In this document: piece by piece, positions 14,084 through 51,302 of the stretch
How the letters are laid out: every line of letters begins with the position of its first letter
Numbering within the stretch: the stretch's first letter is position 1
DNA from: Roseiconus nitratireducens
GTDB taxonomy: Bacteria > Planctomycetota > Planctomycetia > Pirellulales > Pirellulaceae
Reading direction: 5' to 3'
Length of the DNA stretch: 64,000 nucleotides
Assembly (NCBI RefSeq): GCF_008629675.1
Contig: NZ_VWOX01000005.1
Span: 1 to 64,000 of the forward strand
Program-made: the position numbers and the translations under genes
Notes under the pieces: model-generated
Told to the model about the DNA's origin: nothing
The model's input: the letters and a program-made list of their open reading frames with translations, nothing else
The model's database searches: none

Positions 14084-14210
14084 ATGCGAGCGGCCAACTA
14101 TTCGTGGGCTACAGCTCCGGCGAATCGGTCGGAGTGGAAGGGCCCGGCCTCTCGTTGGGGTGTAGTGACCCCGGCGAGCAGGTTTGCAACGGGTAGTTGG
14201 CCGCTCGCGT
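14084..14210 (+). ncRNA. Candidate structured RNA closed by a 15-bp perfect stem
   Basis: gcgagcggccaacta (14086-14100) pairs perfectly with tagttggccgctcgc (14194-14208), and two flanking pairs extend it to about 17 bp. The interior also folds: ctcgttgggg (14151-14160) pairs with ccccggcgag (14169-14178) using two G-U pairs around an 8-base loop, and ctccg (14115-14119) pairs with cggag (14130-14134). There is no credible reading frame through it. The G-U pairs favour an RNA structure over a plain DNA palindrome. It matches no class I recognise. The strand is assigned from the promoter at 13959 and could be the other. Confidence 0.55.
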
Positions 14211-14212
14211 AT

Positions 14213-14233
14213 GTGTGCAGAAAATCTGTACAC
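14213..14233 (+). promoter_or_regulatory. Hairpin abutting a ribosome binding site
   Basis: gtgtgcag (14213-14220) and ctgtacac (14226-14233) pair with one G-U around loop aaaat. The Shine-Dalgarno gggagg (14234-14239) starts at the next base. It could be an operator for a dimeric regulator or a translational control hairpin. Confidence 0.4.
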
Positions 14234-14244
14234 GGGAGGCACCT

Positions 14245-14520
14245 ATGCCTTACCTGTCTATCTCGGACGCGGAAAAGCGTTCCAGCGTAAAAGCCCACCG
14301 AATCAAGTCTCTGATTAATCAGGGCGAGCTTGACGGCTACGTGGGCGTTCCTGGCATCAAAGGACTAGCCATCGACGAAGGCGACCTTCCATTGCTGCGG
14401 ATTGTGCTGTGGCACTTGGATGAGTCACCTGACCGTCAGCCCAACGACCCGACCGAAGATGAAATCTGGTCAATGGCTGCCGAGCTTCGTGCCCTTCGTC
14501 CCGTGGAGGCGGTCGCATGA
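14245..14520 (+). CDS. Small element protein, unknown function (first of a coupled pair)
   Basis: ATG at 14245 has gggagg 5 bases upstream. The 91-residue protein begins with a possible helix-turn-helix (ISDAEKRSSVKAHRIKSLINQGELDGYVGV), which resembles short MerR/AlpA-like DNA-binding modules. An acidic helical end follows. It may be a regulator acting on the hairpin just upstream; that is inferred. It overlaps the next gene by four bases (ATGA). Confidence 0.6.
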   Translation: MPYLSISDAEKRSSVKAHRIKSLINQGELDGYVGVPGIKGLAIDEGDLPLLRIVLWHLDESPDRQPNDPTEDEIWSMAAELRALRPVEAVA

Positions 14521-14885
14521 ATGCTCTAACTCATCAAAAGCCGCACCCGGTTCTGACCCTGACCCAACTGGCCAACTATTACGACGTGTTGCAAGCGGCG
14601 GAACTGTTGGCGACGGAGCAACCGAAGGATGCGGTGCCGATTGCGAGAAGCGTCCTAGCGTCCCTCTTGCGGCTCGCATGGGCACGGGCGAGCGGAAAGC
14701 CGGATTCGGAGCCTAAGCCCGAGTCGGTGCCGTTGAAGCTTCGTAACCGTGGCATCGTAAGCAAGCCAGCGATGCAGCGACTTCGGAACGCTTTCGAAAA
14801 GTCCAAGAACCCGCCGGAGATGTTTTCAGCCTGCCGGGATTTGCTTGTCTGGCTCGCATCAAAGCCCGATGCGGTGATTGACTGA
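14517..14885 (+). CDS. Small element protein, unknown function (second of pair)
   Basis: The 122-residue all-helical protein starts in the stop of the previous gene. It contains LTQLANYYDVLQAAELL and 'RSVLASLLRLAWARASG' helices and a basic centre. No signal peptide or motif is seen and no family is recognised. A strong terminator follows at 14916-14975, so this closes the rightward genes of the element. Confidence 0.6.
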   Translation: MNALTHQKPHPVLTLTQLANYYDVLQAAELLATEQPKDAVPIARSVLASLLRLAWARASGKPDSEPKPESVPLKLRNRGIVSKPAMQRLRNAFEKSKNPPEMFSACRDLLVWLASKPDAVID

Positions 14886-14915
14886 GGCAGAACCCAGCGG
14901 TTCTAATCGCCATTG

Positions 14916-14975
14916 CCGGCGGAGTGACGACCAGCCCGATTGCCCCCGGGCTAACTGTTGCTCCGCCGGTTTCTT
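14916..14975 (+). terminator. Terminator between convergent element operons
   Basis: ccggcggag (14916-14924) pairs with ctccgccgg (14961-14969), with an inner agcccg/cgggct hairpin, and is followed by TTTCTT. It lies between the rightward genes and the leftward HicBA operon. Confidence 0.65.
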
Positions 14976-14984
14976 GTTGGGCCC

Positions 14985-15209
14985 CTACGCTTTCCAGAAC
15001 TCGTCAGCGTCGATACCTGCCTGCTCGATGATGCTTTTTAGGGTGCCCGTCTTGAGCGGCTTCTTGCCGTGGTCTGGAACCGTGGTCGTGCGACTCGAAG
15101 TCTCATTCCGGAAAACCACATGGCTGCCCCGTTGCCGGTCTTTATCAAAGCCGAATTTTTTGAGCTTCTTTGCCACTTGGCGAAAATTGAGTTGCGGCCT
15201 ACTACCCAT
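14985..15209 (-). CDS. hicA: HicA-type mRNA interferase toxin
   Basis: The 74-residue protein has the HicA (YcfA) double-stranded-RNA-binding fold: 'FRQVAKKLKKFGF', the GSHVVF motif with catalytic His (residue 30 from the chosen start) and 'TTTVPDHGKKPLKTGTLKSII'. HicA toxins cleave mRNA. The start at 15209 (MGSRPQLN) is chosen over one two codons upstream. It overlaps the end of the upstream antitoxin gene by 8 bases. Antitoxin-first order is a known variant of hicAB. In this element it should act as a maintenance or abortive module. Confidence 0.9.
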   Translation of the reverse strand: MGSRPQLNFRQVAKKLKKFGFDKDRQRGSHVVFRNETSSRTTTVPDHGKKPLKTGTLKSIIEQAGIDADEFWKA

Positions 15210-15510
15210 CAACAACTATTCGGATCACTCGCGAGTTTTCTTCCTGCTCGACGACTGGCAAATCCGAATACATCATTGATTCCCCGTGAGCCACCCGGCT
15301 CTCTAGCATCGCCAAGAACGCTTCCGAGATACCCTCCTTTGCCTCTTCGAGCGTCTCGCCCTCGCTAACAACGCCGGGGTAATGCAGGGCACAAATCGTG
15401 TAACCTCCACATTCCTCATCGGGGGTAAGAAGAGCCTGAAAGACGTGCCGCCGCACACCAGGCTCAACAAAAACCGGGATCTCGTTATGTGAAACGACTT
15501 CATGAATCAT
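15202..15510 (-). CDS. hicB: HicB-type antitoxin
   Basis: From ATG at 15508-15510 this is 102 residues; an upstream ATG at 15552 would add 14. The core 'GGYTICALHYPGVVSEGETLEEAKEGISEAFLAML' is the RNase-H-like HicB fold that blocks HicA. The C-terminal tail is short and lacks an obvious HTH or ribbon-helix-helix domain, so DNA binding and autoregulation may depend on another protein. It overlaps both neighbours, hicA downstream and the DUF6941-like gene upstream, which puts all three in one leftward operon. Confidence 0.87.
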   Translation of the reverse strand: MIHEVVSHNEIPVFVEPGVRRHVFQALLTPDEECGGYTICALHYPGVVSEGETLEEAKEGISEAFLAMLESRVAHGESMMYSDLPVVEQEENSRVIRIVVDG

Positions 15511-31632: not shown

Positions 31633-34600
31633 TCACGGAGCCCGGTGGTAGTACCCGGGTTCGTCCCTGCCGTCGCCGTCCCAGTCCCCGACGATCGGCT
31701 GACTTTCCGGGGCGTCGGCCGGCAGATCGAAGCGTTGGTCCGCCGCGGTCAACCGCCGATCGCCGTCGGAATCGATGATCCACTGACCACCGCGAATCAC
31801 ACCGACTTCGTCGATGCCGTCGCCATTGAAGTCGCCCACGATCGGTTGATCCCCTGGACGGCCGAACTCGAACATCACTTCGCCCTTCTTCTTCCGTCCG
31901 TCGCCTTCGGTATCCAACACCCAGTTCCCGCCCCGGAATGTCCCGATTTGATCGATCCCGTCCCCGTTCCAGTCTCCCGAAATCGGCGTATCGACGTCCT
32001 CGCCAAATTGGAACACATGGTCGACCGCGTCGGCACGCAGTTGGCCGTCACCCCGGCGCAATAACCGCTCTTGGGCTTTGCCGCGGAGCCGCATGGAGAC
32101 CAACCCCATCCGCTTGTTGGACTCCAGGAATCGGCGGGTGCGGTTGGCCGGGTCCGGCAGTCCGGCGTCAAAACGGATTCGTTGGGGATCCCGTTCCCAA
32201 CTCCGTCCATAGATCCCGATGTCGTCCTTGCCGTCCCCGTCCCAGTCACCGACGACCGGTCGATCGCGTTCGGTGCCCAGTCGGATCCACAAGTCGCCTT
32301 CGTCCCACACGCCATTGCCGTTCAGATCCACAAACCATTCACCGGCGACAAAGATCGCAACTTCGTCGTCGCCATCGCCGTCAAAGTCGCCGACCAAGGC
32401 GACACCGTCTTCATGCCCCAAGGTCATCTTCTGGCTTTCCTGGTGGACCTCTCCTTCCAGTGTCAGCAGTTGCCAACGTCCCTGATCGTGACGGCCCTCG
32501 CTGAAATCGCGCTTGCCGATCTGTGCCGCCACGTGACGGATGACGCCCTCCGCGATGACGGAACCACGCGGGTAGCCTGCGTTGATGACACTCAAGTGCC
32601 ACGTCACTTCGGCAACGTCGCCGTAGATCTTCGGCGGAAGCCGGTCGGACGGAACATCTGCCGAGAAAGGAATCTGCTTGGCGGCAAAGGATTCCGGCGG
32701 CGGCGGCGGCAACCGTTCATCGACCGGTTCCTGTCCCGGCAAAAAGTCACTTGGCGGCGGAGGATCGACGATCACGATCTGGACTTCGCTGAAGTTGTTG
32801 TGCTGGCTGTGGTTCGCGGCGCCAACCGAAATCGCCAGGATCGCGTCCGGACCATGGTCTCCGACGACCGCATCGATCATGGCCAACTGCGCGTCGGTGT
32901 AAAGATCGGCCAGGTTGACTGCCAGGCCGCCCGTCGTCCCCGGGGTATCCAGCGAATCGGTCAATCCGTCGGGTTGACTCTGGAACAGGGTGTAGGTCCC
33001 GGGCCGAAGACCACCGATGCGATAAAAGCCTTCGGCGTCAGACATCACGACGGAATTCGCCAGGGCATTACCGCCCAGAAACGCGTCGTCCGACAGCGGC
33101 TGACCGACGGCGTCGCGGATCTCAATCTGGATGTTGGCCAACCGCGTGTCGTCACTGGTCAGCACGCCGTCCTTGTACTGTCGCAACTGCTCCGCCGCGA
33201 TCTCCGTTTCGGTTTCGATCGGCGGGCCATCAATGAACACGAAACCGGAAATCACGGAGGGCGGGATCTCGAAAAAATTGTAATGCTCCGCGACCGTGCC
33301 ACTCAAGATTTCGATGCCCTCGATCCAGTCCGGACCGGCGATCACTCCTCCCTGATTCCCAATCTGCTGCCCGCCGTGGAAATAGCCCGAGGGCTGCAAT
33401 TCGCGGACGGAGTAAACACCTGGCGGCAATTGGTCGAACGCGTAGCTACCCTGCCCGTCCGTCGTCGTGATGTCGATTCGGTTTCCCTGCCCGTCGATCA
33501 GTTCGACGGACACGCCGGCGATACCGCCTTCGTCGGGATCTCGGTCCTGGTCTTCGTTCACGTCCGCCCACACGAAGCCCGAAATCGATCCGGGCTCGTA
33601 TTCGCAGAACAAATAGTCCACCGCATCGACGCCGGGGTTCAGCGAGACGGACATCAGGTCAACGCCAACGATCGCGCCCCCAGCCGATCCCAGCTTTTGT
33701 CCGCCCTGGTAATAGCCGTCCGGCTGGACTTCAAAAACCATGTAGTCGCCGGCGGCCAACCCCTCGAAACGGTAGCGTCCCGACGCATCGGTCGTCGTGG
33801 TCCGGATCCGGTTGCCGTCGGCATCACGCAATTCAATGGTCACACCTGCCAGACCGCGTTCACCGACGTCGCGGACGCAGTCCTGGTCGGAATCGACGTA
33901 CACCGATCCAGAAAGGCTGGCCGGTGGCAGCTCGCAAAAATCGTAGTCGGTGGCGGCGACGCCCGCGGCAAGATCAATGTCACGGATCCGGTTGGCGCCG
34001 ACGGTCCCGCCGACCGAACCTGCTTGGGCATGGCCGTCAAAGAATCCGTCGGGTTGCAATTCGACGACCGTGTAGGTGCCGCTGCGGAGTCCTTCGAAAC
34101 GATAGTTTCCGTTCGCGTCCGTCACGGTCGTTGCAACGCGGTTACCATCCGAATCGCGGAGTTCGATGGTGACGCCGGCAATTCCATCCTCGTCGGGGTC
34201 CTGGTAACAGTCGTCGTCCAGATCGATGTACACCGTTCCGGACAAACTGGACGGCGGCTGTTCGCAGAAGTCGTAGTCCACTGCATCGATCCCGGCGGCC
34301 AGCTGGATCTTGCTGATCCGGTTGACGCCGATCGTTCCACCTTCCGATCCTGGGATCGCACTGCCGTCAAAGTATCCATCGGGCTGAAATTCCACGACCG
34401 TGTATTCACCACGACGAAGTCCTTCGAATCGATACTTTCCTTCCGCATCGGTGGTGGTGGTGGCAACGCGTTGCCCGTCGGCGTCGCGCAGTTCGATCCG
34501 CACGCCTGCGATCCCCTGCTCCGCTTCATCCAATTCGCAATCGTCGTCCAGATCGACGAAGACGATTCCGGACAGGCTGGAGGGCGGTTCTTCACAGAAA

Positions 34601-37209
34601 TCGTAGTCGACTCCGTCGATCCCCGATCCAAGCTCAATTTGGCTGATTCGATTGACGCCCACCTGGCCGCCCGCCGATCCGGCGCTGACACCGCCGTCGA
34701 AATAGTCTTGGGGCTGGACTTGGACGACGGAATACCGTCCGGGCGTCAAATGGTTGAATCGGTACAGCCCGTCGGGTGACGTCGTCGTGCGTGCCACTTC
34801 TTTCCCGTCAGCGTCCAACAGCCGCATCACTACATCGCCCAATCCGACTTCGTCGTCGTCACGGACGCAATCCCCATCGGTGTCGACGTGGACCGATCCG
34901 GAGAGCGACGCCGGCATCAGTTCGCCAAAGTTGTATTCGACACCGACCGTGCCCTGTGGAAGTGCGATCTGCGAGATCAAGTCGTTGAACGCCACACCGA
35001 CGCGTTGCCCGTCCACACGTCCGGCCGAATCGATGCCGTCCAGGTAGTCCCCAGGCTGTACCTGACGCAGTTCATAGGTTCCCGGCGGTATCCCTTCAAA
35101 CTCATACCGGCCCAGCGAATTTGTCTTCGTGGTTGCAACGGTGTTTCCGGAGGAATCGACCAACGACACCGTCACGGCAGGGATTCCCTGCTCGCCCGTG
35201 TCACGACGACCGTCGTTGGAAGCGTCGTGATAGACGTACCCGGAAATCTTGGCCGGAGCCAATTCGCAAAAGTCATATTCGACGCCGACACCGCCGGGGA
35301 TCATGGTGATCTGCGTGATCGTCGTGCCATCAATCGAATCGCCGACCTGGACGCCATCGATGCGTCCGACGTGTGAACCGCCGTCGATCAGTCCTTCAGG
35401 CGTGTACTGCACGATCTGGTAGGTCCCAGGCGCCACCCGGCCAAAATGGTAGGTGCCCGCCGGCGTCGTGGTGACGCGTGAGATCACATTGCCGTCAGGA
35501 GCCTGCAGTTCGACAATCACGCCGGAAAGTGGCTCGTTGCCCGGGTCATCGTGGTCCCCGTCGCAATCTTGCCCCGGCGCGACCAGGTACACGTTCCCCG
35601 AAATCTGTCCGTAGGCCAGTTCGCCAAAGTTGTAATTCAATCCGACGACACCGCCGCCAAGCTGAATACCGCGGATCGCGTCGCCGGGATTGTCGGCCAC
35701 GCCGACACGAATCCCGTCGACCGTTCCGGCAGTGTCCAATCCGTCCACGAAGTCCGCCGGCTGATTGACTTGGACGATGTCGTAGATTCCCGGAACGAGT
35801 CCGTCGAACCGGTACGCACCGTTGGCATCCGTGACGGCGGTCACCGTCGGCTGGGAAGCGATCGTGCCGTTGGGAATCGCTCGCATCGAGACGCCGGAGA
35901 TGGGTGCTTCACCGGGGTCCCGGATGCCGTTGTTGTTGTCGTCCTGGTAGACGAAACCGGCGATCGAAGACGGAGCCGCCTCCGCAAAATTCATTTCGAC
36001 CGCTTCGGTGTCGCCAAGCGGAATCGAAATGGACGACAGCACGTCCACGCTGGTTGCCAACCCGGTGGGCTGACCGGCGACCGATCCCGGAACCGCCGCG
36101 ACGCTGTAATAGCCGTCCGGCTGTGTCTGCACGACACGGTATTCACCGGGCATCAGCCCCAAGGACTTGGGAAATTGATAGGTCCCGTTCCCGTCCGTCT
36201 GGGTTCGATGTCCCGTGTCGACATACTGCCCGTTGGAGTTTTTCGCAAACAGGGCCAGTTCGACGCCCGACAATCCGGCCTCACCCGACTGACGCGTGGC
36301 GTCCAGATTGTTGTCCAACCAAACGTTGCCGCTGATGGCAACGGGACGAGGTGTCTGGACGGTCGAGCCGATGGCCGCGGCACTGCGGTTGGGTCGGCTG
36401 TCGAGGTCCGTTCCCTCGTCAGGCGGCAGATCCAACCCGTATTCATCGCCGGGGGATCCGTAGTCATTCAAAAAGATCGCATCAGCCGTTGCCGACTCGA
36501 AGTGCGGAGCTTCGAAGACCGCCTCCAAGATTGAATCTTGAAACTCTTGCCCGGAGGTGATGACGTCCAGCCGGTCATTGAAAATCGCGAGGTCAACGGA
36601 GTTGCGCAACACCTCGTCAACGTCCAGCGTGAATTCCAAGCGATCGCCGGCGCGAAAGTTTTGCAGGTCCAGCACCAATTCTTGGCCGCCGTCGGACACG
36701 CTGGCGGTCGCGGTCGCCTGTCGCCCGTCGGAGGTTTCGATCCGCACGACCTTGAAATCGTGCCAGCCGCTTTTTCCTCGTCCTCCCGCCTGCGTGTCGA
36801 AGATCGGATCACCGACCGAAATCCCGTCGCCGTCCTTGTCGGTGCGAATCCGCAGTTGATTCAGTTCCGTGTTTTCAGCCCCCCCGGTGAACGACAGCAG
36901 AAAACGGTCGCCCTGAGAATCGCTGCCGACATCGTTGTCGGTTTCCAGATAGTCGGTTTCCAGATACACGACACCGACGTGAATCGGATCGGCGGCAAGC
37001 AATTCTCGCCGCTCAAGTATCTGCGGACCGAGCGAACGACGCTTGATGTCCGCCGTAACCGCACGCGGAGTTCGACGAGTTCGTTTCGGTTTCCAAATCA
37101 CGCGTTGGCACCTCCGTGTGCCCGATACACCCAACCGCTGCCCGCACCGAACGAATCCGGACACGATCCGAATCAAGCGTCCGAATCGGATTCGGATCAT
37201 CGCCTTCAT
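31633..37209 (-). CDS. Giant surface protein with ten SdrD-type B repeats and C-terminal FG-GAP-like repeats
   Basis: With ATG at 37209 the protein has 1858 residues; a GTG at 37239 is possible. The N terminus is basic and carries LGPQILERRELLAAD (about residues 60-74), the planctomycete 'LE.R.LLAA' motif of large exported proteins. After a 220-residue domain come ten SdrD/Cna-B-like repeats (from about residue 290 to 1430), each with 'ISG.V..D....D..E.GIAGV...L.D..G', 'TTTD..G.Y.F..L.PG.Y.V' and 'QP.GY.DG'. The last 250 residues hold about five 'GDWDGDG.D..G.....W' calcium-type FG-GAP/VCBS-like repeats. It probably forms an extended, calcium-stabilised adhesin or matrix stalk. Repeats 5-9 are strikingly alike, a sign of recent duplication. 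Confidence 0.88.
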   Translation of the reverse strand: MKAMIRIRFGRLIRIVSGFVRCGQRLGVSGTRRCQRVIWKPKRTRRTPRAVTADIKRRSLGPQILERRELLAADPIHVGVVYLETDYLETDNDVGSDSQGDRFLLSFTGGAENTELNQLRIRTDKDGDGISVGDPIFDTQAGGRGKSGWHDFKVVRIETSDGRQATATASVSDGGQELVLDLQNFRAGDRLEFTLDVDEVLRNSVDLAIFNDRLDVITSGQEFQDSILEAVFEAPHFESATADAIFLNDYGSPGDEYGLDLPPDEGTDLDSRPNRSAAAIGSTVQTPRPVAISGNVWLDNNLDATRQSGEAGLSGVELALFAKNSNGQYVDTGHRTQTDGNGTYQFPKSLGLMPGEYRVVQTQPDGYYSVAAVPGSVAGQPTGLATSVDVLSSISIPLGDTEAVEMNFAEAAPSSIAGFVYQDDNNNGIRDPGEAPISGVSMRAIPNGTIASQPTVTAVTDANGAYRFDGLVPGIYDIVQVNQPADFVDGLDTAGTVDGIRVGVADNPGDAIRGIQLGGGVVGLNYNFGELAYGQISGNVYLVAPGQDCDGDHDDPGNEPLSGVIVELQAPDGNVISRVTTTPAGTYHFGRVAPGTYQIVQYTPEGLIDGGSHVGRIDGVQVGDSIDGTTITQITMIPGGVGVEYDFCELAPAKISGYVYHDASNDGRRDTGEQGIPAVTVSLVDSSGNTVATTKTNSLGRYEFEGIPPGTYELRQVQPGDYLDGIDSAGRVDGQRVGVAFNDLISQIALPQGTVGVEYNFGELMPASLSGSVHVDTDGDCVRDDDEVGLGDVVMRLLDADGKEVARTTTSPDGLYRFNHLTPGRYSVVQVQPQDYFDGGVSAGSAGGQVGVNRISQIELGSGIDGVDYDFCEEPPSSLSGIVFVDLDDDCELDEAEQGIAGVRIELRDADGQRVATTTTDAEGKYRFEGLRRGEYTVVEFQPDGYFDGSAIPGSEGGTIGVNRISKIQLAAGIDAVDYDFCEQPPSSLSGTVYIDLDDDCYQDPDEDGIAGVTIELRDSDGNRVATTVTDANGNYRFEGLRSGTYTVVELQPDGFFDGHAQAGSVGGTVGANRIRDIDLAAGVAATDYDFCELPPASLSGSVYVDSDQDCVRDVGERGLAGVTIELRDADGNRIRTTTTDASGRYRFEGLAAGDYMVFEVQPDGYYQGGQKLGSAGGAIVGVDLMSVSLNPGVDAVDYLFCEYEPGSISGFVWADVNEDQDRDPDEGGIAGVSVELIDGQGNRIDITTTDGQGSYAFDQLPPGVYSVRELQPSGYFHGGQQIGNQGGVIAGPDWIEGIEILSGTVAEHYNFFEIPPSVISGFVFIDGPPIETETEIAAEQLRQYKDGVLTSDDTRLANIQIEIRDAVGQPLSDDAFLGGNALANSVVMSDAEGFYRIGGLRPGTYTLFQSQPDGLTDSLDTPGTTGGLAVNLADLYTDAQLAMIDAVVGDHGPDAILAISVGAANHSQHNNFSEVQIVIVDPPPPSDFLPGQEPVDERLPPPPPESFAAKQIPFSADVPSDRLPPKIYGDVAEVTWHLSVINAGYPRGSVIAEGVIRHVAAQIGKRDFSEGRHDQGRWQLLTLEGEVHQESQKMTLGHEDGVALVGDFDGDGDDEVAIFVAGEWFVDLNGNGVWDEGDLWIRLGTERDRPVVGDWDGDGKDDIGIYGRSWERDPQRIRFDAGLPDPANRTRRFLESNKRMGLVSMRLRGKAQERLLRRGDGQLRADAVDHVFQFGEDVDTPISGDWNGDGIDQIGTFRGGNWVLDTEGDGRKKKGEVMFEFGRPGDQPIVGDFNGDGIDEVGVIRGGQWIIDSDGDRRLTAADQRFDLPADAPESQPIVGDWDGDGRDEPGYYHRAP

Positions 37210-37348
37210 CGATCTGCGTCCGGTCCGGTCACCGGCCACCGGTTAAATCACATGCCCCTTCACCACTCACTGTCTCCCTCAGGAACTGCGGTTGCCCACA
37301 CGTCCATCAGGATCCGCCCTTTGTTCAATCCCCCGTCCGCGAATGTCC

Positions 37349-40562: not shown

Positions 40563-42029
40563 CTACGATCCGTCCGACGCTTGCAGTGCCCGATCGATCG
40601 CTGCCTCGGTTTCCGGGTTCGGCTTGAACGATCCTGGTCGTTTCCCCTGGGCAATCTGTTTCGGCGTCGAGCCGAGTTGATTCTTTCGGTTCCAGTGTTC
40701 TGGCTGGGCCCCCAATTCAACCAACAGATCCACCACCCGAGGAAAGCTGCGGTAGGCGGCACCGTGGACCACCGTTTCGCCATGTTCATCCCGGTCATCC
40801 AAATGCCCGCCCCACTGGACCAGCTGTCGCACCATGGCCAACGTCTCCGCTTCGGTCCCAGGAAACTCGTCAGCGACAAAGATCCCGACACCGGCTGCGG
40901 CCAGCAGGGGCGTCGTGCCGTCCGCGTTGGCCAGTTGAACGTCCGCGCCAAGTTCGACCAATAGCCGCGCGTAGGGCAGGTCCGACGTGTAGGCGGCATA
41001 CAACAATGGCGTCGCGCCGCGATCATTCAAGCGGGCCGCGCGGTACTTACCGTCTTCCAACTGCAAATTCACGTCCGCGCCACGCCGGACCAATTCCCGG
41101 GCAAATTGCAGGCTGCCAACCTGTCCGGAACCGACCGGCGGCGGATCGCCCATCGCGTTGTCTCCACGCGGCGGTCGGCGAACCCACGAGAGCGCGTGCA
41201 GCGGAGCAAACCCGCTGCGTTGGTCGTTGGGATCGGCGCCCCAATCCACCATCATCAGTGCTAACTCAAAATGCCCGCTTTCGACCGCCAACAGCAGCGG
41301 CGACATGCCCTTCCGCGGCGCCCGGCCCGACGTCCTTAACGGGTTCATCGTCGCCTGAATGTCCGCGCCGGCGTCCAGCAACCGCCGCACGATGTCGGCG
41401 TGTCCCTGGCGAGCCGCAAAATGCAGGGCAGTGAAGCCGCTGCGCAAATCGTGCTGCCAATCACAGCCGTGCTCCAGCAACACGTCGACCGCTTCCAGAT
41501 TGCCGCGTGCGGCCGCCCACATCAACGCCGTTTGGCCGTCGCGTTGCTTGGCATCCACCGCCGCGCCGCGTTCAATCAACGCTTCGACCAACGCAGCGTT
41601 GCCTGCCCGAGCTGCATGCATCAACACGGTTTCGCCGCCAGCCAGAACCGTCTGGGCGTCGGCTCCGGCCCCCAGCAACACGTTCGCGGCTTCATCATGT
41701 CCCAGGCGGCAGGCAACCGCGAGCGGCGTGATGCCGTATTCGGTCGCCACGTCCTCTTTCGCGCCGGCCGCCAGCAATTGTTCGACCACCTTGGGTTGAT
41801 TCCAAAACGCGGCCCAGTGCAAAGCCGTCATCCCGTCCGGCTGCGGTGCGTCGACCTTCCCCTGGTCGCCGAGTCCCTGGTCGCCAAGCGAGGCGACGAC
41901 GTCTTTCCAACGCTGCTGCTCGGCCAAGTCAGCGATCGATGATTCAGCCGATTGGGCCTTGCTCGCCCCGACCAGGAACTCGACCGATCCGGCTAGAAAC
42001 AGCGTCAACAGCAGCAACGGAAATCGCAT
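40563..42029 (-). CDS. Secreted ankyrin-repeat protein
   Basis: From ATG at 42029 the 488-residue protein has a signal peptide (MRFPLLLLTLFLAGSVEFLVGAS) and about ten ankyrin repeats of the form 'DG.TALHWAA..N...VV..LL.AGA'. Clear units are GMTALHWAAFWNQ, GITPLAVACRLGHDEAANVLLGAGAD, GFTALHFAARQGHADIVRRLLDAGAD and GTTPLLAAAGVG. Ankyrin arrays bind proteins; the partner is unknown. Upstream in-frame ATGs lack a signal peptide at the start. It lies 118 bases after smc on the same strand. Confidence 0.85.
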   Translation of the reverse strand: MRFPLLLLTLFLAGSVEFLVGASKAQSAESSIADLAEQQRWKDVVASLGDQGLGDQGKVDAPQPDGMTALHWAAFWNQPKVVEQLLAAGAKEDVATEYGITPLAVACRLGHDEAANVLLGAGADAQTVLAGGETVLMHAARAGNAALVEALIERGAAVDAKQRDGQTALMWAAARGNLEAVDVLLEHGCDWQHDLRSGFTALHFAARQGHADIVRRLLDAGADIQATMNPLRTSGRAPRKGMSPLLLAVESGHFELALMMVDWGADPNDQRSGFAPLHALSWVRRPPRGDNAMGDPPPVGSGQVGSLQFARELVRRGADVNLQLEDGKYRAARLNDRGATPLLYAAYTSDLPYARLLVELGADVQLANADGTTPLLAAAGVGIFVADEFPGTEAETLAMVRQLVQWGGHLDDRDEHGETVVHGAAYRSFPRVVDLLVELGAQPEHWNRKNQLGSTPKQIAQGKRPGSFKPNPETEAAIDRALQASDGS

Positions 42030-42147
42030 GGACAACCCCGACGGTAAAGGAAGACCATTCATTGTAGCGAACCGCGCGGGCCGATCGGATAAGGAGCGAA
42101 AGGGCGGCAAAACAGGCGAGCCCGTGGGAACTGCGGGGGCAAGCGAA

Positions 42148-45100
42148 TCAGGCCGCTTCGCCTTCGCTGATTTCGCCGTCGTCGCTGACGTCTTCGAAAC
42201 GGATGGAGACGCGTTTGCTGACACCCGATTCCTGCATCGTGACGCCGTACAACGTCGTCGCCGCCGTCATCGTCTTCTTGCTGTGCGTGACGACGACAAA
42301 TTTGCTGTGATCCAGAAACTCATTGAGCACCGTCACAAAGCGGCCGATGTTCGCTTCGTCGAACGGTGCATCCACTTCATCCAGCACGCAAAACGGGCTG
42401 GGACGGTATTGGAAGATGGACATCAGCAACGCGACCGCGGTCAATGCCTTTTCCCCGCCGGACAACAACGAGTTGCTGAAACTGGGCTTGCCGGGCGGCG
42501 TTGCCAGGATCTCGACGCCGGCTTCCAGCGGGTCTTCGGATTCCTCCAGGACCAGATCGGCGTGCCCGCCCCCGAACGACTTGCGATAGAGTTTTTGAAA
42601 GTTTTGGCGGATCGCTTCCAACGTATCCAAAAACAGCCGTCGGCTGTCGGCATTGATCCGCCCGATGATGCGTTGCAACGAATCCTTGGCGGCGGTCAAA
42701 TCCTCATACTGGCCGTTGAGATGATCGAATCGCTCTTGCAAGCCCTCCAACTCCGCCAAGGCTTCCATGTTCACGCTGCTGGTGCGCTGCAGTTGGTCAC
42801 GCAACCGATTGATTTCCGCATCCATCGCCGCGCGATCGTCGATGTCGGCAATTTCTTCCGGCGGTTCATCATGCTCGAGGTCAATCTGATAATCCTCCTG
42901 CAACCTTTCGGCCAACGTCGCCAATCGGTGTCGGGCGTTGTCGCGGCGACTGGTGATCGCGTGCACCGACTCACTGGCCTCGGCGGCCAGCTTGATGATC
43001 TGCTCGCTGGCACGTGCGGTTTCGCGATTCGCCTCGCGCACGGCATCCGCCTGGCGGGCCAGATCGTGCAAGGCCTTTTGGTGTTGCTCGCTTTCCCAGT
43101 GCAGCGTTGCCAATTCCGTGGTCGCCGAAAGCATTTGCTGGACCAATGATTCCATCCGCCCGCGCGCCGCATCGGCCCCGGCGCGTGCCTCGCCAACGGC
43201 GGTTTCGCGTTCCGCCTGATCGCGCCGCTGTTTCTCGATGGCGCTCACCAATGCTTCATGCTTTTGTTCGGCTCGCGCCAAATCAACCGAAATCGTCATC
43301 ACGCCCGCGGTTGCCGTTTGCAACGCCTGTTGCGTCTCCGACAACATCTCTTCGATCTCCGCCGACTCGCTTTCCAGCAGTTCGATCTCGTGCCGTGCCG
43401 ATGCGATTTCCGCCTGAATCTCAGCGGCTTCCTCGCGGCCGCGCGCCTGTTCGGCGCGATTCGCTTCAATTTCCGACGCGATCCCCTCGTGCAATTGGCG
43501 ACCGGATTCGACACGCTCGCCGGCGTGACGCTGATCGGCCTGGGCGGTCGCCAGCTCGGTCAGCGCATCCCGGTGCCGTCGTTCCAGCCGCCCCAACTCG
43601 GCGGACTGCCGGTCGACAAGCTGCGCCAGGGTGCCGATCTCTTGATCGTTCTCAGAGATCTGGAGGGTGTAATCTTCGATCTGCTCCGCAGCCGCGGTCA
43701 GTTCGCTGCGGCGGCTGACCAATCCGGTGGCTGAAGCCACGGTCCCCAGAATCATCGTCCCGTCGCTTTCCAAGACTTCGCCCTGACGGGTCACGAACCG
43801 TTGGCCGCGGCCGCCGAGTTTGCAAATCTTGTGGGCCGCATCCAGGTCTTCGACCAGCCACGTCGACGAAAGCAGGTGCGAGATCAGCTTGAATTGATTC
43901 GGTGCGCACTCGATCACCCGATCGGCGCGGCCAATCACGCCACGCAGACCCGCCAGCTGAATCCGGTTTTCCGTTGGTGGTTCCGGTAGCTGATCGGTGC
44001 GGATGATTCCGACGCGCCCGTCGGCCGTGACTTGGCCGCTGCGGATCGCTTCGGAAAGAGCCGGCCCGGAGGTGACCAGGTACTGTGCCCGGTGCGCCAA
44101 AGCGGCATCGATCATCGGTGCGGTGTGCATGTCTGCGCTGACCAAGTCGGCCACCATCCCGTCGACGATGATCTTGTCGGCCAACTCCTCCGACTGTGCC
44201 AACTGTTGAAGCACTTCCCGGACGCCGCCGGAAACACCTTCCTGACGATGCTGCAAATCTTCCAGGACCAGGTACCGCTGCCGAACACCTTCCAGACGCG
44301 CTCGAAGCTCTGCCGTCTCTCCGCTGCGACGGTCCAAGACCCGACGGTTCTCGTTCGCTTCCGTTTCCGCATCGCGAATCTCGCCGGCCAACGTTTCAAT
44401 CGTCCCGGTCAGTTCCTCCACCCGTCGCGCATGCTCCTGGGCATCTTGTTCCGCCTGGCGGAGCTGCGTTTCAGCGGCCTGTTGACGATCCGTCAGATTC
44501 TCCAAGGCCCGTTCGGCCTCGGCCAGCTTGATCTCGACGCGTTGCAAACCGGACTCTTTTTCCGTCACGCGACGCACGGTGATCAGGTGACGGCGCTGCA
44601 ACTGGTCGCGTTGCTTGATGATTTCATCGGCCTCCGCCTGGACCCGATCGCGATCGGATTCGGCTTTCGCGGCCCGTTGGCGAACCGCAATCAGATCCGC
44701 ACGACAAGCATCCTGCTGTGCGACGGCCTGACGCAATTGGGTCGCAGCGGCGCCGGCTTGGGCTTGCATCGCGCGGACCCGCCGCAACGACTTGGCGATT
44801 CCGGCGCGAAGCTCTTCGACCGACGCCTGGTCGGCATCGCGGCGCCCCGAGAGTGCTGCGATCCGCTGTAAGGAATCGCTCCGCTGCGTTTCCAATTGCC
44901 GGGCCTGGTCGGCGATCTGCTGCAATTCCAAGTCCGCCGCCTGACGACGCTCCGTCATCGACTCGCGCTCGGCCTGCAACGTCTTTTGCCGCTGCACCGC
45001 TTCGGCCAGTTCGCCTTCGCAGCCTTCGATTTCGGAGGTCAGGTTGGCCCAATCGTTCCAGGCCGCTACGGTCCTCAACTCCTTCAACCGCTCGCTGGCC

Positions 45101-45747
45101 TGGCGATACTTTTCCGCTTTGCTGGCTTGGCTGCGGACGCGTTTGAGCCGGGAACCGACCTCTTCGACAATGTCGCCCAACCGAGTCAGGTTGGATTGGA
45201 CGCGGGCCAGGCGTCGTTCGGCCTCCAGTTTTTTGGCCTTGAACCGGCTGATGCCGGCGGCCTCCTCAAAGATCGCGCGGCGGTCCTTGGCGTTGGCCTG
45301 CAGCATCCGGTCGACTTTGCCCTGCTCAATCAGGCTGTAGGCATCAATGCCGACGCCGGTTCCGCGAATCAGATCGCGGACGTCTTTCAGGCGAACAGCC
45401 TGTTGATTGATCAGGTACTCGCTCTCTCCGCTTCGATACACCCGGCGGGTGACATGGACCTCGGGGGCGTCGACCGGCAGATTGCCGGACGAATTGTCAA
45501 AGATGATGGTCGCTTCGGCCGCACCCGCCGCCGGACGGGTCTGGGACCCCTTGAAGATCACATCCGACATCTCCTTTCCCCGCAGACTCTTGGCACTCTG
45601 CGATCCGAGCACCCACTTCATTGCGTCGACGATGTTGGATTTCCCGCTCCCGTTGGGCCCCACGATGACGGTGATGCCGTCGGGAAAATCAAACCGCGTG
45701 CGATCTGCAAAGCTTTTGAAGCCGGCGAGTTCGAGAGCTTTGAGCAT
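42148..45747 (-). CDS. smc: Chromosome segregation protein SMC
   Basis: The 1199-residue protein has the N-terminal ATPase half (MLKALELAGFKSFADRT, Walker A GPNGSGKS at residues 30-37), a long coiled coil, and a hinge domain at about 500-670. The second coil and the C-terminal half follow, with the signature LLSGGEKALTA and Walker B CVLDEVDAPFDE. Length is typical of bacterial SMC. It compacts and separates chromosomes together with ScpA and ScpB, which are not encoded nearby. It is divergent from the TPR operon at 45927. Confidence 0.97.
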   Translation of the reverse strand: MLKALELAGFKSFADRTRFDFPDGITVIVGPNGSGKSNIVDAMKWVLGSQSAKSLRGKEMSDVIFKGSQTRPAAGAAEATIIFDNSSGNLPVDAPEVHVTRRVYRSGESEYLINQQAVRLKDVRDLIRGTGVGIDAYSLIEQGKVDRMLQANAKDRRAIFEEAAGISRFKAKKLEAERRLARVQSNLTRLGDIVEEVGSRLKRVRSQASKAEKYRQASERLKELRTVAAWNDWANLTSEIEGCEGELAEAVQRQKTLQAERESMTERRQAADLELQQIADQARQLETQRSDSLQRIAALSGRRDADQASVEELRAGIAKSLRRVRAMQAQAGAAATQLRQAVAQQDACRADLIAVRQRAAKAESDRDRVQAEADEIIKQRDQLQRRHLITVRRVTEKESGLQRVEIKLAEAERALENLTDRQQAAETQLRQAEQDAQEHARRVEELTGTIETLAGEIRDAETEANENRRVLDRRSGETAELRARLEGVRQRYLVLEDLQHRQEGVSGGVREVLQQLAQSEELADKIIVDGMVADLVSADMHTAPMIDAALAHRAQYLVTSGPALSEAIRSGQVTADGRVGIIRTDQLPEPPTENRIQLAGLRGVIGRADRVIECAPNQFKLISHLLSSTWLVEDLDAAHKICKLGGRGQRFVTRQGEVLESDGTMILGTVASATGLVSRRSELTAAAEQIEDYTLQISENDQEIGTLAQLVDRQSAELGRLERRHRDALTELATAQADQRHAGERVESGRQLHEGIASEIEANRAEQARGREEAAEIQAEIASARHEIELLESESAEIEEMLSETQQALQTATAGVMTISVDLARAEQKHEALVSAIEKQRRDQAERETAVGEARAGADAARGRMESLVQQMLSATTELATLHWESEQHQKALHDLARQADAVREANRETARASEQIIKLAAEASESVHAITSRRDNARHRLATLAERLQEDYQIDLEHDEPPEEIADIDDRAAMDAEINRLRDQLQRTSSVNMEALAELEGLQERFDHLNGQYEDLTAAKDSLQRIIGRINADSRRLFLDTLEAIRQNFQKLYRKSFGGGHADLVLEESEDPLEAGVEILATPPGKPSFSNSLLSGGEKALTAVALLMSIFQYRPSPFCVLDEVDAPFDEANIGRFVTVLNEFLDHSKFVVVTHSKKTMTAATTLYGVTMQESGVSKRVSIRFEDVSDDGEISEGEAA

Positions 45748-45926: not shown

Positions 45927-47921
45927 ATGCCCGATCCCGGATCCTTTCTCGACCGCCGCCGGCCGCTCGTGACGTCCCTTTTTCCCTTGCGACACCGCGA
46001 TCGATGCTTGCGCACCTGTACATTTGTTGCGGTTCTGGCTGCGCCGATGCTGTCTCCCCTGCAAAGCCAAAGCGACGAGCCGGCCTCGCAGGAAATCCGA
46101 AACGACCAAAACTCGGGTGACATCCAGTCCGCCTACGAGTCGCTGGTTCGCCTGCACGAAACCACGCGGCAGGACAATTCGGTTGATTTCGTGGTGTTGG
46201 CCCGGAAGGCTGAGGGACAGTTGGACGCCGAGCAGGTTCGGTCGCTGTACCGCATGGCGGCCCAATCGCTGACTCGCAGCGAGCCGTCGGCGGACCACGC
46301 CGACCGGCGGTTGCTGATTCGAATGGCGGCGGCGACGCGACTGGAGGCCCCCGAGCAGGTCACCCCGATCCTCACGGACGCCTTGGCGGAGCTCAGCCAG
46401 CCGGGAATCCAAGCCTCCACTGCCAGGGAAACGTCGCTGGTCCAAATCTCGCTGCGTTCCGCGTGGTCCCACCTGACCCGATCGGAACCGGCCGCCGCCG
46501 AACGCCTGTACGTGGCGATTCTCGAGCTGCTCGGCCGACGTATTTCGGCGGAGGATCCGCCAGCAGCAACCTGGGACTCCCAGCGAGCTCTCGCAATGCT
46601 GGGACGAGGCTGGGCCACTGCAATGCAGGCAGACAAAGCCGATCAAGCCGCACAGCGGTTGCAGGAATTCATTGACGCCTATCCCACCCACGCCGACGCG
46701 GCGCGTGCCCAGGCGATGCGAATCCGATGTCTAAAGTCCGCTGGAAACGAAGCAGCGTGGAAAGAATCGATCGCGGAGTTTCTCCAACGCTGGCCGAACG
46801 ATCCGACGGCTCCCGAAATCGTCGCGGAGTTGCTCGCCGAGTCGGATCCGGAGCGATCCGAGTTGCAACAAGTGGTGATTCGATGGTTGGATCGCGACGG
46901 TGATCTCGACCGCTGGCCGTTGGAACTGGTCGGTCACGCGCTGATTCTTCGGGGCGATTCCCTGCCGGCGGAACGGTATGCCGCGTTGCAGCGCCGCGCG
47001 GCCACCGAAAGCTCGGATGGTCGGATCATTGCCATGGTCTTGAACGCTTTCAGCGACAGTGGCCGGGACGCGGCATCGGAGCGGATTGCCGCGGCAGTGA
47101 TCGGCGGTTCGATCGAGCAACCGACTCCGATGAGCATGGAAGCGGCTTGTCGTTGGGCGGCGCGGACTCAACGCTGGACGCTGCTGGCATTGGCCGCGGA
47201 AACCGTCAACCTGCTGCCGGGCGAAGCCGATGCGAGGACGATTCACGTCGACCGCTTGCTGGCCGAAGCGTTGCTGCAAACCGGTCGCGGAGACTTGGCA
47301 TGCACCTGGTGGGCGTGGGTCGTCGATGTCCGCGGAGCCACCGATTTCGCCAGTCTGCTGCGGTGTGCGGAAACCGCCGTGGCCGACGCCCCGATCGACG
47401 AAGCGACGCGGCGACTGGATCGCGTCCGCCGTTGCATCCAGGATTCCGACGGAAGGTTGCAAGCAAAAACACACTTGATCGATTTGCTGGACGCCGACTT
47501 GGCGATCCGGCGATTGGACTTTGATCGTGCCCGAACGCTCTTCGATGCGGTCGTTCGAGCTCCGGGGACGACCGCGGCGCTGCGTGGACGGGCGCAGTGG
47601 ATGATCGGCGAAACTTACTTTTTGCAGCATCGCTTTGCCGACGCGATTGACGCCTACCGCCGCGTCGACGGTCTGGATCCGGGCGGCGAGTTTGCCCCGG
47701 CTTCTTTGGTTCAAGCCGGCAAGGCGTTTGAACAATTGGGGCGGACACGGGACGCCGGAGTTTGCTACGGAACACTGATGGAACGTTTTGCCGACAGTTC
47801 GTACGCCACGGAGGCGCGCCACCGGATGGCGGTGCTGTCGGGCAGGGCAGAAACCGCCCCGGCCGGTCAGGATTCGTCCTCCCGCGACTCCCAGCCCGCC
47901 GGCTCTCGATTGCGACGATGA
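45927..47921 (+). CDS. Periplasmic TPR protein, first gene of ExbB/ExbD operon
   Basis: The 664-residue protein has a basic N-terminal leader (RRRPLVTSLF...) with a hydrophobic segment CTFVAVLAAPMLSPL, a likely signal or anchor. Helical TPR-like units follow, for example 'AQRLQEFIDAYPTHADAARAQAMRIRCLK' and, near the end, 'MIGETYFLQHRFADAIDAYRRVDGLDPGGEFAPASLVQAGKAFEQLGRTRDAGVCYGTLMERF'. The terminal part resembles YbgF/CpoB-type TPR proteins that pair with Tol-Pal. The ExbB-like gene starts 12 bases downstream, so a scaffold role for that complex is reasonable; this is inferred. Confidence 0.72.
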   Translation: MPDPGSFLDRRRPLVTSLFPLRHRDRCLRTCTFVAVLAAPMLSPLQSQSDEPASQEIRNDQNSGDIQSAYESLVRLHETTRQDNSVDFVVLARKAEGQLDAEQVRSLYRMAAQSLTRSEPSADHADRRLLIRMAAATRLEAPEQVTPILTDALAELSQPGIQASTARETSLVQISLRSAWSHLTRSEPAAAERLYVAILELLGRRISAEDPPAATWDSQRALAMLGRGWATAMQADKADQAAQRLQEFIDAYPTHADAARAQAMRIRCLKSAGNEAAWKESIAEFLQRWPNDPTAPEIVAELLAESDPERSELQQVVIRWLDRDGDLDRWPLELVGHALILRGDSLPAERYAALQRRAATESSDGRIIAMVLNAFSDSGRDAASERIAAAVIGGSIEQPTPMSMEAACRWAARTQRWTLLALAAETVNLLPGEADARTIHVDRLLAEALLQTGRGDLACTWWAWVVDVRGATDFASLLRCAETAVADAPIDEATRRLDRVRRCIQDSDGRLQAKTHLIDLLDADLAIRRLDFDRARTLFDAVVRAPGTTAALRGRAQWMIGETYFLQHRFADAIDAYRRVDGLDPGGEFAPASLVQAGKAFEQLGRTRDAGVCYGTLMERFADSSYATEARHRMAVLSGRAETAPAGQDSSSRDSQPAGSRLRR

Positions 47922-47933: not shown

Positions 47934-48986
47934 ATGAAACACCTTTCCCCCAATCGATCCACGCTGAAGCTGCGACCGGAGAATTCCCGTCGGCGGATGG
48001 CCGGACTGCTGTCGCACCTGCTGCCGGTCGTCGTGCTTTCCGCCGGACTGCTGTGTTGGCTGGTCTCGATCGACAATGCCGCGGCTCAGAACGGATCTCC
48101 GTATGGAAACAACCAGTTTGGAAGCCAGTTCTCCGGAGCGGCGCCACTGAATCCGAATGCCGCGCAGGGCTATTCGTCTCAACCCGCGTTTCGGGTCGCC
48201 CAACAAGGTGGCGGTGCGGCGGCGGGGGGTGGTTCCGGGATTCCGGCATTGCCCAACGAACAGGCCAACGCCGCCAGCGAAGACGCACAAGACGGCGAAG
48301 GTTCCGGATGGTTCCAAACACCGGCGGTGGTGCAAAAGGTGATGTCGGGCGGCTGGCTGATGTTGCCGCTGGCGATTTGTTCGCTGATCGTGTTCGCCCT
48401 GTCGCTGGAACGCATGATCGCGTTGCGACGCGGACGCGTGATTCCGCGGCCGTTCGTCCGCCGGTTCACCGAGTGCGTCGAAGACGGAGTGCTCAGCTAC
48501 GAAGAAGCGACCGAGCTTTGCAAAGAATTCGATTGCCCGGTCAGCGAAGTATTCCGAGCGGCGTTGCGTCGCTGGGGGCGACCGATGTTGGAAATCGAAC
48601 AGGCGGTTCTGGATGCCGGTGACCGCGTGTCCGACGGTTTGCGAAAATACCTGCGTGTCTTTCACGCAATCAGTAACGTGGCCCCGCTGATCGGACTGCT
48701 GGGAACCGTGATCGGCATGATCCAGGCGTTCGAAGTCATCAGCGATCAACAATCGCTCGGTCGCCCGGAGATGCTCGCCAGCGGCATCAGCACCGCCTTG
48801 ATGACGACCGCCGGCGGTCTGTCCGTCGCGATTCCTGCCTACCTGGCGTACATGTACTTCAGCAGCAAGTCGGACCGCTACCTGGGAGAAATCGAGCGGC
48901 TTTGTCAGCGCGTCATCGATTGCATCTCCGCGGAGGGCTTGGAAGACGCGGGTTCATCCCGGGCCAAGAAACGCAGGGCGGCCTGA
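47934..48986 (+). CDS. MotA/TolQ/ExbB proton-channel protein
   Basis: The 350-residue protein has an extra N-terminal helix (residues 26-46), a Gln/Gly/Ala-rich exterior loop, and then the conserved three-helix TolQ/ExbB core. These are 'GGWLMLPLAICSLIVFALSLERM' (about 139-161), 'ISNVAPLIGLLGTVIGMIQAFEVI' and 'GISTALMTTAGGLSVAIPAYLAYMYF'. The Thr/Gly pattern of the last two helices is the proton path. It forms a pentameric motor with the ExbD-like protein encoded one base downstream. Confidence 0.93.
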   Translation: MKHLSPNRSTLKLRPENSRRRMAGLLSHLLPVVVLSAGLLCWLVSIDNAAAQNGSPYGNNQFGSQFSGAAPLNPNAAQGYSSQPAFRVAQQGGGAAAGGGSGIPALPNEQANAASEDAQDGEGSGWFQTPAVVQKVMSGGWLMLPLAICSLIVFALSLERMIALRRGRVIPRPFVRRFTECVEDGVLSYEEATELCKEFDCPVSEVFRAALRRWGRPMLEIEQAVLDAGDRVSDGLRKYLRVFHAISNVAPLIGLLGTVIGMIQAFEVISDQQSLGRPEMLASGISTALMTTAGGLSVAIPAYLAYMYFSSKSDRYLGEIERLCQRVIDCISAEGLEDAGSSRAKKRRAA

Positions 48987-48987: not shown

Positions 48988-49419
48988 ATGGCAAATCGAA
49001 ATCGGTCCGCCGACGACGTTACCATCAACCTGACGCCAATGATTGACGTCGTGTTCCTGCTGGTGATCTTCTTCATGGTCGGCACCAAGTTCAGTGAATC
49101 CGAAAGTCGCATCAAGGTCAGTGTTCCATCGGTCGGACGCATGAACGCGATCTCGCGCGTCCCGGATGAACGCGTGATCGAAGTCACCGCCGACGGCAAG
49201 ATACTGCTGGATGGCCAAACGATCGATGTCGACCAGCTGGCAGAATCGCTTCGTCAGCAGCACGCCAACTATCCGGATCTGAAAGTCGCCGTGCGCGGGG
49301 ACGGATCCAGTTCCTTTCAACGTGTCGCCGAAGTGTTGCACGTGGTTCGCCAAAGCGGCATCGAGCAATTGGGAATCGCCGCCAAGGTGGATCCCAGCGG
49401 CGGAGGGATGCGCCGTTGA
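48988..49419 (+). CDS. ExbD/TolR biopolymer transport protein
   Basis: The 143-residue protein has one N-terminal membrane helix, 'LTPMIDVVFLLVIFFMVGTKF', with the essential Asp in 'PMIDVVF'. A periplasmic domain (about residues 45-140) ends in 'RVAEVLHVVRQSGIEQLGIAAKV', all typical of ExbD/TolR. Length is usual. It is the stator partner of the ExbB-like protein. Its stop overlaps the TTG start of the next gene (49416). Confidence 0.94.
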   Translation: MANRNRSADDVTINLTPMIDVVFLLVIFFMVGTKFSESESRIKVSVPSVGRMNAISRVPDERVIEVTADGKILLDGQTIDVDQLAESLRQQHANYPDLKVAVRGDGSSSFQRVAEVLHVVRQSGIEQLGIAAKVDPSGGGMRR

Positions 49420-51302
49420 ATCGCATCGGTGCAGATCTTCCGTTATGGGCAGATCCGCGTCTGGTGTATGCGGTCGCGATTGCTGCCATCGTCTTGCTGG
49501 CGGCCACGGTGTGGCTTTTTCGCCGCACCAAACGCGACGGTCGGGGTGCCGGGATTGTCTGTCTGATTCTGTCGGTTGCCTTGCACGTGGCGCTGCTTTG
49601 GCTGGTTCCCTACCAGGCCCAAAACGCCGGCGGCTCGTCGACCGAAGATGACTCACCCGACCACGTCGGTGTGGATGCGATCACGTTTTCGACTTTCGAG
49701 TCGGACCTGCAAATCGCCGAAGCGTCCGGATACAGCGATCCGATGCCGATCGCGCCGCTACCGGTGCACTCGCTGCAGGAACTGCTCGCCGAACCGACCG
49801 TTCCCGATGACGCGAAATCGGCGGTCGACGCGGGATCGGTCGAAGAAGATGCCTTGTCGATTCCCGAACCGCCGGCGGAGACTCCGCCACCGCCTGCGGC
49901 CCTGGCAAGCACGCTCGAACCACCTGCCGTCGAGGATTCAGAGCTGGCCGCGGAATTGGATTCGGCCCTGGATCAGTTGCTGAAGACGCAGCTGGAAATC
50001 GCTCAAAGCCCCGCCGAGGCCCCGTCACAGATCGAGCCGTCGGCGCCATCAGCGGATCCACCGAAGCAGGACGATCAGCCGGCAGCGGATCCGTCGATGC
50101 TTACCGAACAGCGCGAACCCGCCGTCCGCCCCCAGGCATCGCCTACTGTCCGACCGTCCGCGGCAAACGCGTCGCGTCAGGCTGCTACCACCGCCGCCGC
50201 GGCGACGGTCCCCGGCGAAACCGCGTCAGATTTCGCCAACCGCGTCGGATCGGCCAAACAGATCGCTTTGGCGGAAACGGGTGGTGACGCCCAAACCGAA
50301 GCGGCGGTGCGCGCGGCGCTTCGTTTTCTGGCTGAGTCACAACGGGATGATGGATCCTGGGATCCGCGGGCGTCCGGCGCCGGTGTCGAACGCATGCCTT
50401 TGGGGGAACACCGTTTCGGGGCGGGGACCAAGAGCACGCATGCCCTGACGGGGTTGGCGCTGCTGACCATGATGGGAGCCGGCAACACGCATTTGGACGG
50501 CGACTACAAAGACAACGTCTACCGCGGCCTATCCTACCTGATCCAAAACCAGAACCCCGACGGCTCGCTCAGCGGCGACGCCACGTTGTACGCCGCCAGC
50601 TACTGTCATTCGATGGCGGCACTCGCCTTGTGCGAAGCGGCGGTGATGACCCGAGACGCGTCCGCGGTCGAATCCTCCCGGCGGGCCGTCGGTCACACCA
50701 TTCGGATGCAGCATCCTGTCACCGGCGGTTGGCGCTACACCCGTGGTGATCCCGGCGACCTGAGCCAACTGGGCTGGCAGGCCATGGTGCTGGATGCCGC
50801 CCGACGCGCCGGCGTCGCGATTCCCAACGAGCGTTTCGACGGGATCGCAAGGTTCTTGCACAGCGTGCGTGCCGGTTCGGGCGGCCTGGCAAGCTATCGG
50901 CCGGGCGAAGCGGCCAGCCGCACGATGACCGCCGAAGCCTTGGCCACGCGGCTGCTGATCGGTGAAGCCGTCCCACAGCGAGAAATCGATGAGGCGGAAC
51001 GCTATCTGTTGGACCGACCGCCCGGGACGGGGCAAGACAACTATTACTGCTGGTACTATGCCACGATTGCGTTGCACCAGTTGCAGGATGATGCCTGGCA
51101 GCGGTGGAACGCGGCGTTGAAACGACGCCTGCTTTCGACGCAACGTCCCGACGGCAGTTGGCCCGCAGGAACGGTGTGGGGCGGCTACGGGGGAACCATC
51201 TACACCACGTCCATGGCGGCGTTGTGCCTGCAGTCCTACTACCGACACACGATTCGCGGCACCCGCGGCCGCGTCGCACGGGCGCCCGGAACGACACGTT
51301 GA
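49416..51302 (+). CDS. TonB-like N terminus fused to a prenyltransferase/squalene-cyclase-like barrel
   Basis: A TTG at 49416 overlaps the ExbD stop. The 628-residue protein has two N-terminal membrane helices (about residues 16-34 and 46-64). The second, with ILSVALHVALLWL, places Ser53 and His57 in the SxxxH spacing of the TonB energy-coupling helix. A Pro/Glu/Ala-rich linker (about 70-285) follows, as in TonB. Instead of a TonB C-terminal domain it ends with an alpha/alpha barrel (about 300-610): 'ALRFLAESQRDDGSWDP', 'GLSYLIQNQNPDGSL', 'AVGHTIRMQHPVTGGWRY' and 'RLLSTQRPDGSWPAG', the QW-like repeats of squalene-cyclase/prenyltransferase folds. The DxDD-type acid is not apparent, so catalysis is doubtful. 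Confidence 0.75.
   Translation: MNRIGADLPLWADPRLVYAVAIAAIVLLAATVWLFRRTKRDGRGAGIVCLILSVALHVALLWLVPYQAQNAGGSSTEDDSPDHVGVDAITFSTFESDLQIAEASGYSDPMPIAPLPVHSLQELLAEPTVPDDAKSAVDAGSVEEDALSIPEPPAETPPPPAALASTLEPPAVEDSELAAELDSALDQLLKTQLEIAQSPAEAPSQIEPSAPSADPPKQDDQPAADPSMLTEQREPAVRPQASPTVRPSAANASRQAATTAAAATVPGETASDFANRVGSAKQIALAETGGDAQTEAAVRAALRFLAESQRDDGSWDPRASGAGVERMPLGEHRFGAGTKSTHALTGLALLTMMGAGNTHLDGDYKDNVYRGLSYLIQNQNPDGSLSGDATLYAASYCHSMAALALCEAAVMTRDASAVESSRRAVGHTIRMQHPVTGGWRYTRGDPGDLSQLGWQAMVLDAARRAGVAIPNERFDGIARFLHSVRAGSGGLASYRPGEAASRTMTAEALATRLLIGEAVPQREIDEAERYLLDRPPGTGQDNYYCWYYATIALHQLQDDAWQRWNAALKRRLLSTQRPDGSWPAGTVWGGYGGTIYTTSMAALCLQSYYRHTIRGTRGRVARAPGTTR

Follow-up and report, generated by a model that had tools for sequence, protein, structure and literature searches.

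Organization of the locus

The stretch of DNA analysed here, referred to as the window, comprises 64,000 nucleotides of the planctomycete Roseiconus nitratireducens (contig NZ_VWOX01000005.1). On its forward strand lie, in this order, genes for a tetratricopeptide repeat (TPR) protein, ExbB, ExbD and a protein of 628 amino acids with an alpha/alpha toroid domain, separated by gaps of 12 and 1 bases and then by an overlap, as the TTG start of the toroid frame (49416-51302) overlaps the exbD stop. The next gene 3' of the toroid gene encodes a nucleoside hydrolase. The features of the operon are as follows.

45927..47921, + strand: TPR protein, probably exported, with BamD/YbgF-like TPR repeats (TPR_6, E 6e-10)
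47934..48986, + strand: ExbB/TolQ-type motor subunit (PF01618, E 3e-29)
48988..49419, + strand: ExbD/TolR-type motor subunit (PF02472, E 6e-29)
49416..51302, + strand: putative TonB-like transducer composed of a transmembrane (TM) hairpin, a Pro/Glu linker and an alpha/alpha toroid (reading frame, Pfam, AlphaFold, fold match)
49455..49523, + strand: predicted TM helix 1, residues 14-36 (AlphaFold/DSSP)
49542..49613, + strand: predicted TM helix 2, TonB-like, residues 43-66 (AlphaFold/DSSP)
49572..49586, + strand: SxxxH motif, S53-V-A-L-H57 (column conservation, named-locus counts)
49614..50240, + strand: predicted disordered Pro/Glu-rich periplasmic linker, residues 67-275 (mostly pLDDT <50)
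49671..49697, + strand: candidate D-box/motor-box strand VDAITFSTF, residues 86-94 (position matches the D-box strands of relatives)
50247..51251, + strand: alpha/alpha toroid of squalene-cyclase-like fold, residues 278-612 (pLDDT ~97; Z 25.9)

An earlier note, made from the sequence alone, had described the toroid gene as the fourth of an operon with TPR, ExbB and ExbD genes, and this arrangement is borne out both by Pfam matches in the window and by comparison with other genomes. Among 60 relatives, the best match to the toroid protein is nearly always found 3' of TPR-ExbB-ExbD, and the TPR gene lies 5' of ExbB in most. A separate collection of 80 named public loci, which partially overlaps with the 60 relatives, included 66 loci with at least 2.2 kb of upstream sequence, to which scoring of gene order was confined; ExbB followed by ExbD was directly upstream of the toroid gene in every one (66/66). 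No gene families other than those of the motor, the TPR protein and the toroid are found again and again across the majority of the 80 loci. Elsewhere in the window, the reverse strand encodes an 1868-amino-acid surface-type protein with many SdrD_B/SpaA-like repeats (31633-37239) and an ankyrin-repeat protein whose gene overlaps the end of an SMC gene (40563-45747).

A TonB-like membrane helix and linker

The AlphaFold2 model of the toroid protein, built on an alignment of 62 sequences, places Ser53 (TCG at 49572) and His57 (CAC at 49584) inside TM helix 2, with the SxxxH spacing of TonB that the earlier note had pointed out. The same note had assumed a single membrane helix; the SxxxH helix stands, but two TM helices are predicted. 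The loop that joins them, RRTKRDGRG, is rich in Arg and Lys and, by the positive-inside rule, would be cytoplasmic, from which we infer that TM2 runs N-in/C-out, the orientation of TonB.

Conservation of the motif among orthologues had been set beforehand as the test of its significance. In the 74 of the 80 named loci with an intact N-terminus the His is present in all, and the Ser in 70, being replaced by Ala in the other four. This count selected the helix by its His, but a hydrophobicity-first scan that makes no use of the His agrees with it, and the MAFFT alignment stacks all aligned His residues at a single position. Outside the toroid region, the edge of which is marked by R276, no column of that alignment but H57 is invariant, and the columns of C49 and S53 are at least 90% conserved, which argues that the motif is not due to chance. 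The remaining residues of the longer SHLS motif, Leu at +7 and Ser at +11, are missing (V64 and A68 here) and are not conserved in relatives either; these positions are described as less well conserved for Ton systems (PMC12215075). A profile of the TM1-TM2 region retrieved only chance matches among PDB sequences, TonB and TolA not being among them, and a match of the whole-protein profile to TolA/TonB was dropped as support because the aligned stretch is the low-complexity linker.

The Pro/Glu-rich linker that had been noted after the membrane helix is recovered in the model as some 200 residues of predicted disorder. In E. coli TonB, the D-box (45-ISVTMVT-51) pairs with ExbD (PMC12215075), and it begins 25 residues from His20. 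An alternating hydrophobic strand occurs at a median of +25 from the His in 49 of 62 orthologues, the spacing of E. coli TonB, as against a mean of 8-13 and a maximum of 23 sequences in shuffled controls; in later linker windows such a strand was seen in only 0-4 of the 62. The genus of the window has a divergent version, VDAITFSTF, which fails the strict D-box pattern.

The motor subunits

The residues on which proton flow would depend are retained. The pore threonines T258 and T292 and the TM3 proline P301 of ExbB align with T145, T178 and P187 of TolQ and are conserved in 125 of 125 sequences, and D20 of ExbD corresponds to residue 25 of solved ExbD, the aspartate in the TM helix that carries the proton. 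Ser16 and His20 of TonB contact Ser34 and Trp38 of ExbB, and the Ser-His pair of TonB/TolA contacts S34 of E. coli ExbB or S28 of TolQ (PMC12215075). The equivalent of this serine is S150 in the window's ExbB (Ser in 120/125), whereas the equivalent of Trp38 is not conserved, being F154 here and Leu or Val in most. The window's ExbB begins with a signal-peptide-like N-terminus and a Gly/Gln-rich extension of ~90 amino acids (47934-48330), in which it resembles the 'long ExbB' proteins; in these, HasB, a paralogue of TonB, is contacted by the extension (PMC9008036). A Zorya-type phage-defence motor was considered and rejected, as the ZorA match was marginal (E 0.003, in the generic channel region) and no ZorB was found. 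In Rhodopirellula baltica an exbB and exbD pair, RB12053/RB12055, is induced by high salinity (PMC2754498).

Absence of a conventional TonB beside the operon

The toroid protein has no match to TonB_C (PF03544/PF13103) at E<=1. As regards INDEPENDENCE FROM TonB, the window's genome holds one TonB_C protein, encoded on another contig (C19), which does match the TonB_C models, along with one clear Plug match. The earlier note had observed that no normal TonB gene lies nearby, and had named a TonB always encoded with the operon as a finding that would speak against its proposal. No TonB_C-like open reading frame was found around the 80 named loci (~0.95 Mb). Moreover, at least three relatives (G011, G038 and G039), the first represented by a complete chromosome, keep the operon and have no TonB_C or Plug match in HMM searches. 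Judged by TonB_C, the toroid protein thus falls outside the TonB family, yet it probably works like TonB.

The toroid domain

The earlier note had proposed a cyclase-like barrel, and with respect to the fold this was correct. The predicted structure aligns with squalene-hopene cyclase (2sqc_A) with a Z of 25.9 and 3.2 Å over 291 residues, the best Foldseek match is another cyclase (E 7e-7), and Pfam SQHop_cyclase models match; the NCBIfam cyclase models give 49.7 bits, short of the curated cut-off of 322.7. A cyclase function did not hold up: the catalytic DxDD motif, present in one of 62 toroid sequences, is absent here, so that cyclase chemistry is unlikely and was rejected. An alpha-2-macroglobulin thioester domain was likewise rejected, there being no CGEQ in the sequence, though complement chains are among the fold matches.

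In toroid enzymes the pocket lies where every other helix begins. A set of polar residues that hardly vary (Y396, H398, E407, D448, S450, E507, Y544 and Y547) is clustered at just these positions of the toroid and, if the inner helices are those we take them to be, would face such a pocket.

Distribution and paralogues

One other family of the class, f21, has this architecture as well, with ExbD adjacent. In yet another, f74, SxxxH is retained in the toroid protein while the adjoining ExbB-like protein has lost TM1 length, the pore Thr and the TM3 Pro (seen in L260, L261 and L263-L266) and no ExbD is adjacent; SxxxH therefore persists there without a local motor. Our guess is that f21 is Planctomycetales-like and f74 Gemmatales-like. 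In a phylogenetic tree, the operon toroids of the Pirellulales form one well-supported clade, which is joined by the f21 toroids and then by those of f74. A second motor-linked toroid lineage, which includes a protein from contig C53 of the window's own genome and L268, stands apart.

Toroid proteins occur at three of the five ExbD loci of the window's genome. The C53 locus is a second ExbB-ExbD-toroid operon (L197, 6112-10487), whose 914-amino-acid toroid protein carries SxxxH as FSVCVH and belongs to the separate lineage; 3' of it (10838-15425) lie genes for an ExbB-like protein and for two proteins with an N-terminal MotB/ExbD-like TM, e.g. HDAFLDIVANLVGILIILVVV, which Pfam does not call as ExbD. 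Contig C11 has the third of the ExbB loci (L191, 4444-9600), at which ExbD is matched several times; it starts with a toroid and HEAT-repeat protein that lacks SxxxH, and a Pro/Glu linker is found there in another protein, which has a single TM helix.

Interpretation

As judged from sequence and predicted structure, the toroid protein is likely to be a periplasmic force transducer of ExbB-ExbD, of the TonB/TolA type, in which an alpha/alpha toroid replaces the C-terminal domain of TonB. TM2 would dock onto TM1 of ExbB by way of S53 and H57, and the candidate D-box strand just past the membrane would pair with the periplasmic domain of ExbD. Proton flow involving ExbB T258, T292 and P301 and ExbD D20 would then pull on the long disordered linker, and the pull would carry the toroid, whose conserved pocket may grip a ligand; one might guess at an envelope glycan, lipid or protein. 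Since the motor helix of TonB is kept and a toroid sits in place of the usual head, the target of its pull is probably not the customary set of nutrient receptors in the outer membrane. The earlier note had ventured as much, and its suggestion gains support from the SxxxH motif, the absence of a TonB beside the operon and the D-box-like strand, while the action of force on the toroid is what we infer from these features. Several observations count against the transducer reading: the poor conservation of the Trp38 equivalent in ExbB, the missing SHLS residues at +7 and +11, the divergent D-box of the window's protein, the SxxxH kept without a local motor in f74, and the TM1-TM2 profile that did not bring up TonB or TolA.

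One special form of this reading, whose probability overlaps with that of the general one, is a Tol-like machine that stabilizes the envelope, the toroid standing in for TolA domain III and moving a partner bound to the outer membrane or wall during growth or division. The motor subunits score best against the TolQ/TolR models, the operon is near-universal within the order of the window, and the TPR protein, likely a periplasmic partner of the transducer, resembles YbgF/CpoB (E 7e-19 to the ybgF-like model TIGR02795, under its cut-off). Set against this, no TolB or Pal gene recurs beside the operon across the 80 loci, and we regard the Tol-like form as a possibility of lesser weight.

It is rather unlikely that the toroid is instead an envelope enzyme whose SxxxH helix only docks on ExbB, to anchor or gate it, so that the motor is regulated by the toroid or scaffolds it and does not pull. 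The D-box-like strand and the disordered linker are what a pulling transducer requires, and no known catalytic signature was found (DxDD in 1 of 62). Such an enzyme would nevertheless fit the polar residues at the alternate helix starts, the fold neighbours of the toroid, which are mostly enzymes (cyclases, epimerases, AprG and GH76), and the retention of SxxxH beside a degenerate motor in f74. That SxxxH is merely a generic planctomycete membrane-anchor motif is very improbable: toroid proteins across the phylum also carry it where the stretch examined has no motor gene, but TM2 used as a query against the window's whole genome gave significant E values for toroid proteins only, and the operon copies add a D-box-like strand at the TonB spacing and fixed adjacency to ExbB-ExbD.

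A broader version of the force-transducer reading can be put forward tentatively, as rather doubtful: that toroid-headed proton-motor transducers, distinct from Ton and Tol, exist throughout the phylum, that the toroid under mechanical force binds a ligand or is catalytic, perhaps as an enzyme driven by force or as a mover of glycans or lipids at the planctomycete envelope, and that one motor or more serves several paralogues in trans. As far as we could find, SxxxH-type transducers have so far been tied only to receptor import (TonB), envelope stabilization (TolA) and, by prediction, vWA proteins. If the coupling proposed here is true, a toroid transducer conserved through much of the class, and retained where TonB and plug go undetected, would put this proton motor to work in one more function of the envelope, and H57, S53 and ExbD D20 offer planctomycete cell biology a concrete target for mutation.

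Comparison with known systems

A literature search found no report of a toroid-type transducer or of a planctomycete ExbD in connection with squalene, and the main text of the essential-gene papers on P. limnophila and V. spinosum does not mention ExbB, ExbD or TonB. With squalene-hopene cyclase the toroid shares its fold and QW-like repeats; unlike the cyclase, it has no DxDD, consists of one toroid only, is tethered to the membrane and is predicted to be periplasmic. The toroid protein shares with E. coli TonB the SxxxH within a TM helix, the Pro-rich linker, the association with ExbB-ExbD and, in most orthologues, the D-box-like strand at +25, but differs in lacking TonB_C, in its extra N-terminal TM helix and far longer linker, and in that no dependence of its operon on TonB-dependent receptors was detected. 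It resembles TolA in having SxxxH and a strand after the TM helix (IDAVMVD in TolA, VDAITFS here), and differs from it in having neither domain III nor the helical domain II, and no TolB/Pal beside its gene.

Among published systems the vWA force transducer comes closest (Williams-Jones et al. 2025, PMC12204202); neither toroids nor cyclases are mentioned in that paper. Shared with those proteins are the TM helix with a conserved motor-binding His, the disordered linker, a predicted motor box, a globular C-terminus that is not that of TonB, and an operon of TPR, TolQ-like and TolR-like genes in PVC bacteria. The vWA systems differ in having a pair of TolR-like genes, as opposed to the one ExbD here, and in their C-terminus, which adopts the vWA fold where the planctomycete protein carries an alpha/alpha toroid; the two TM helices of the latter are a further difference.
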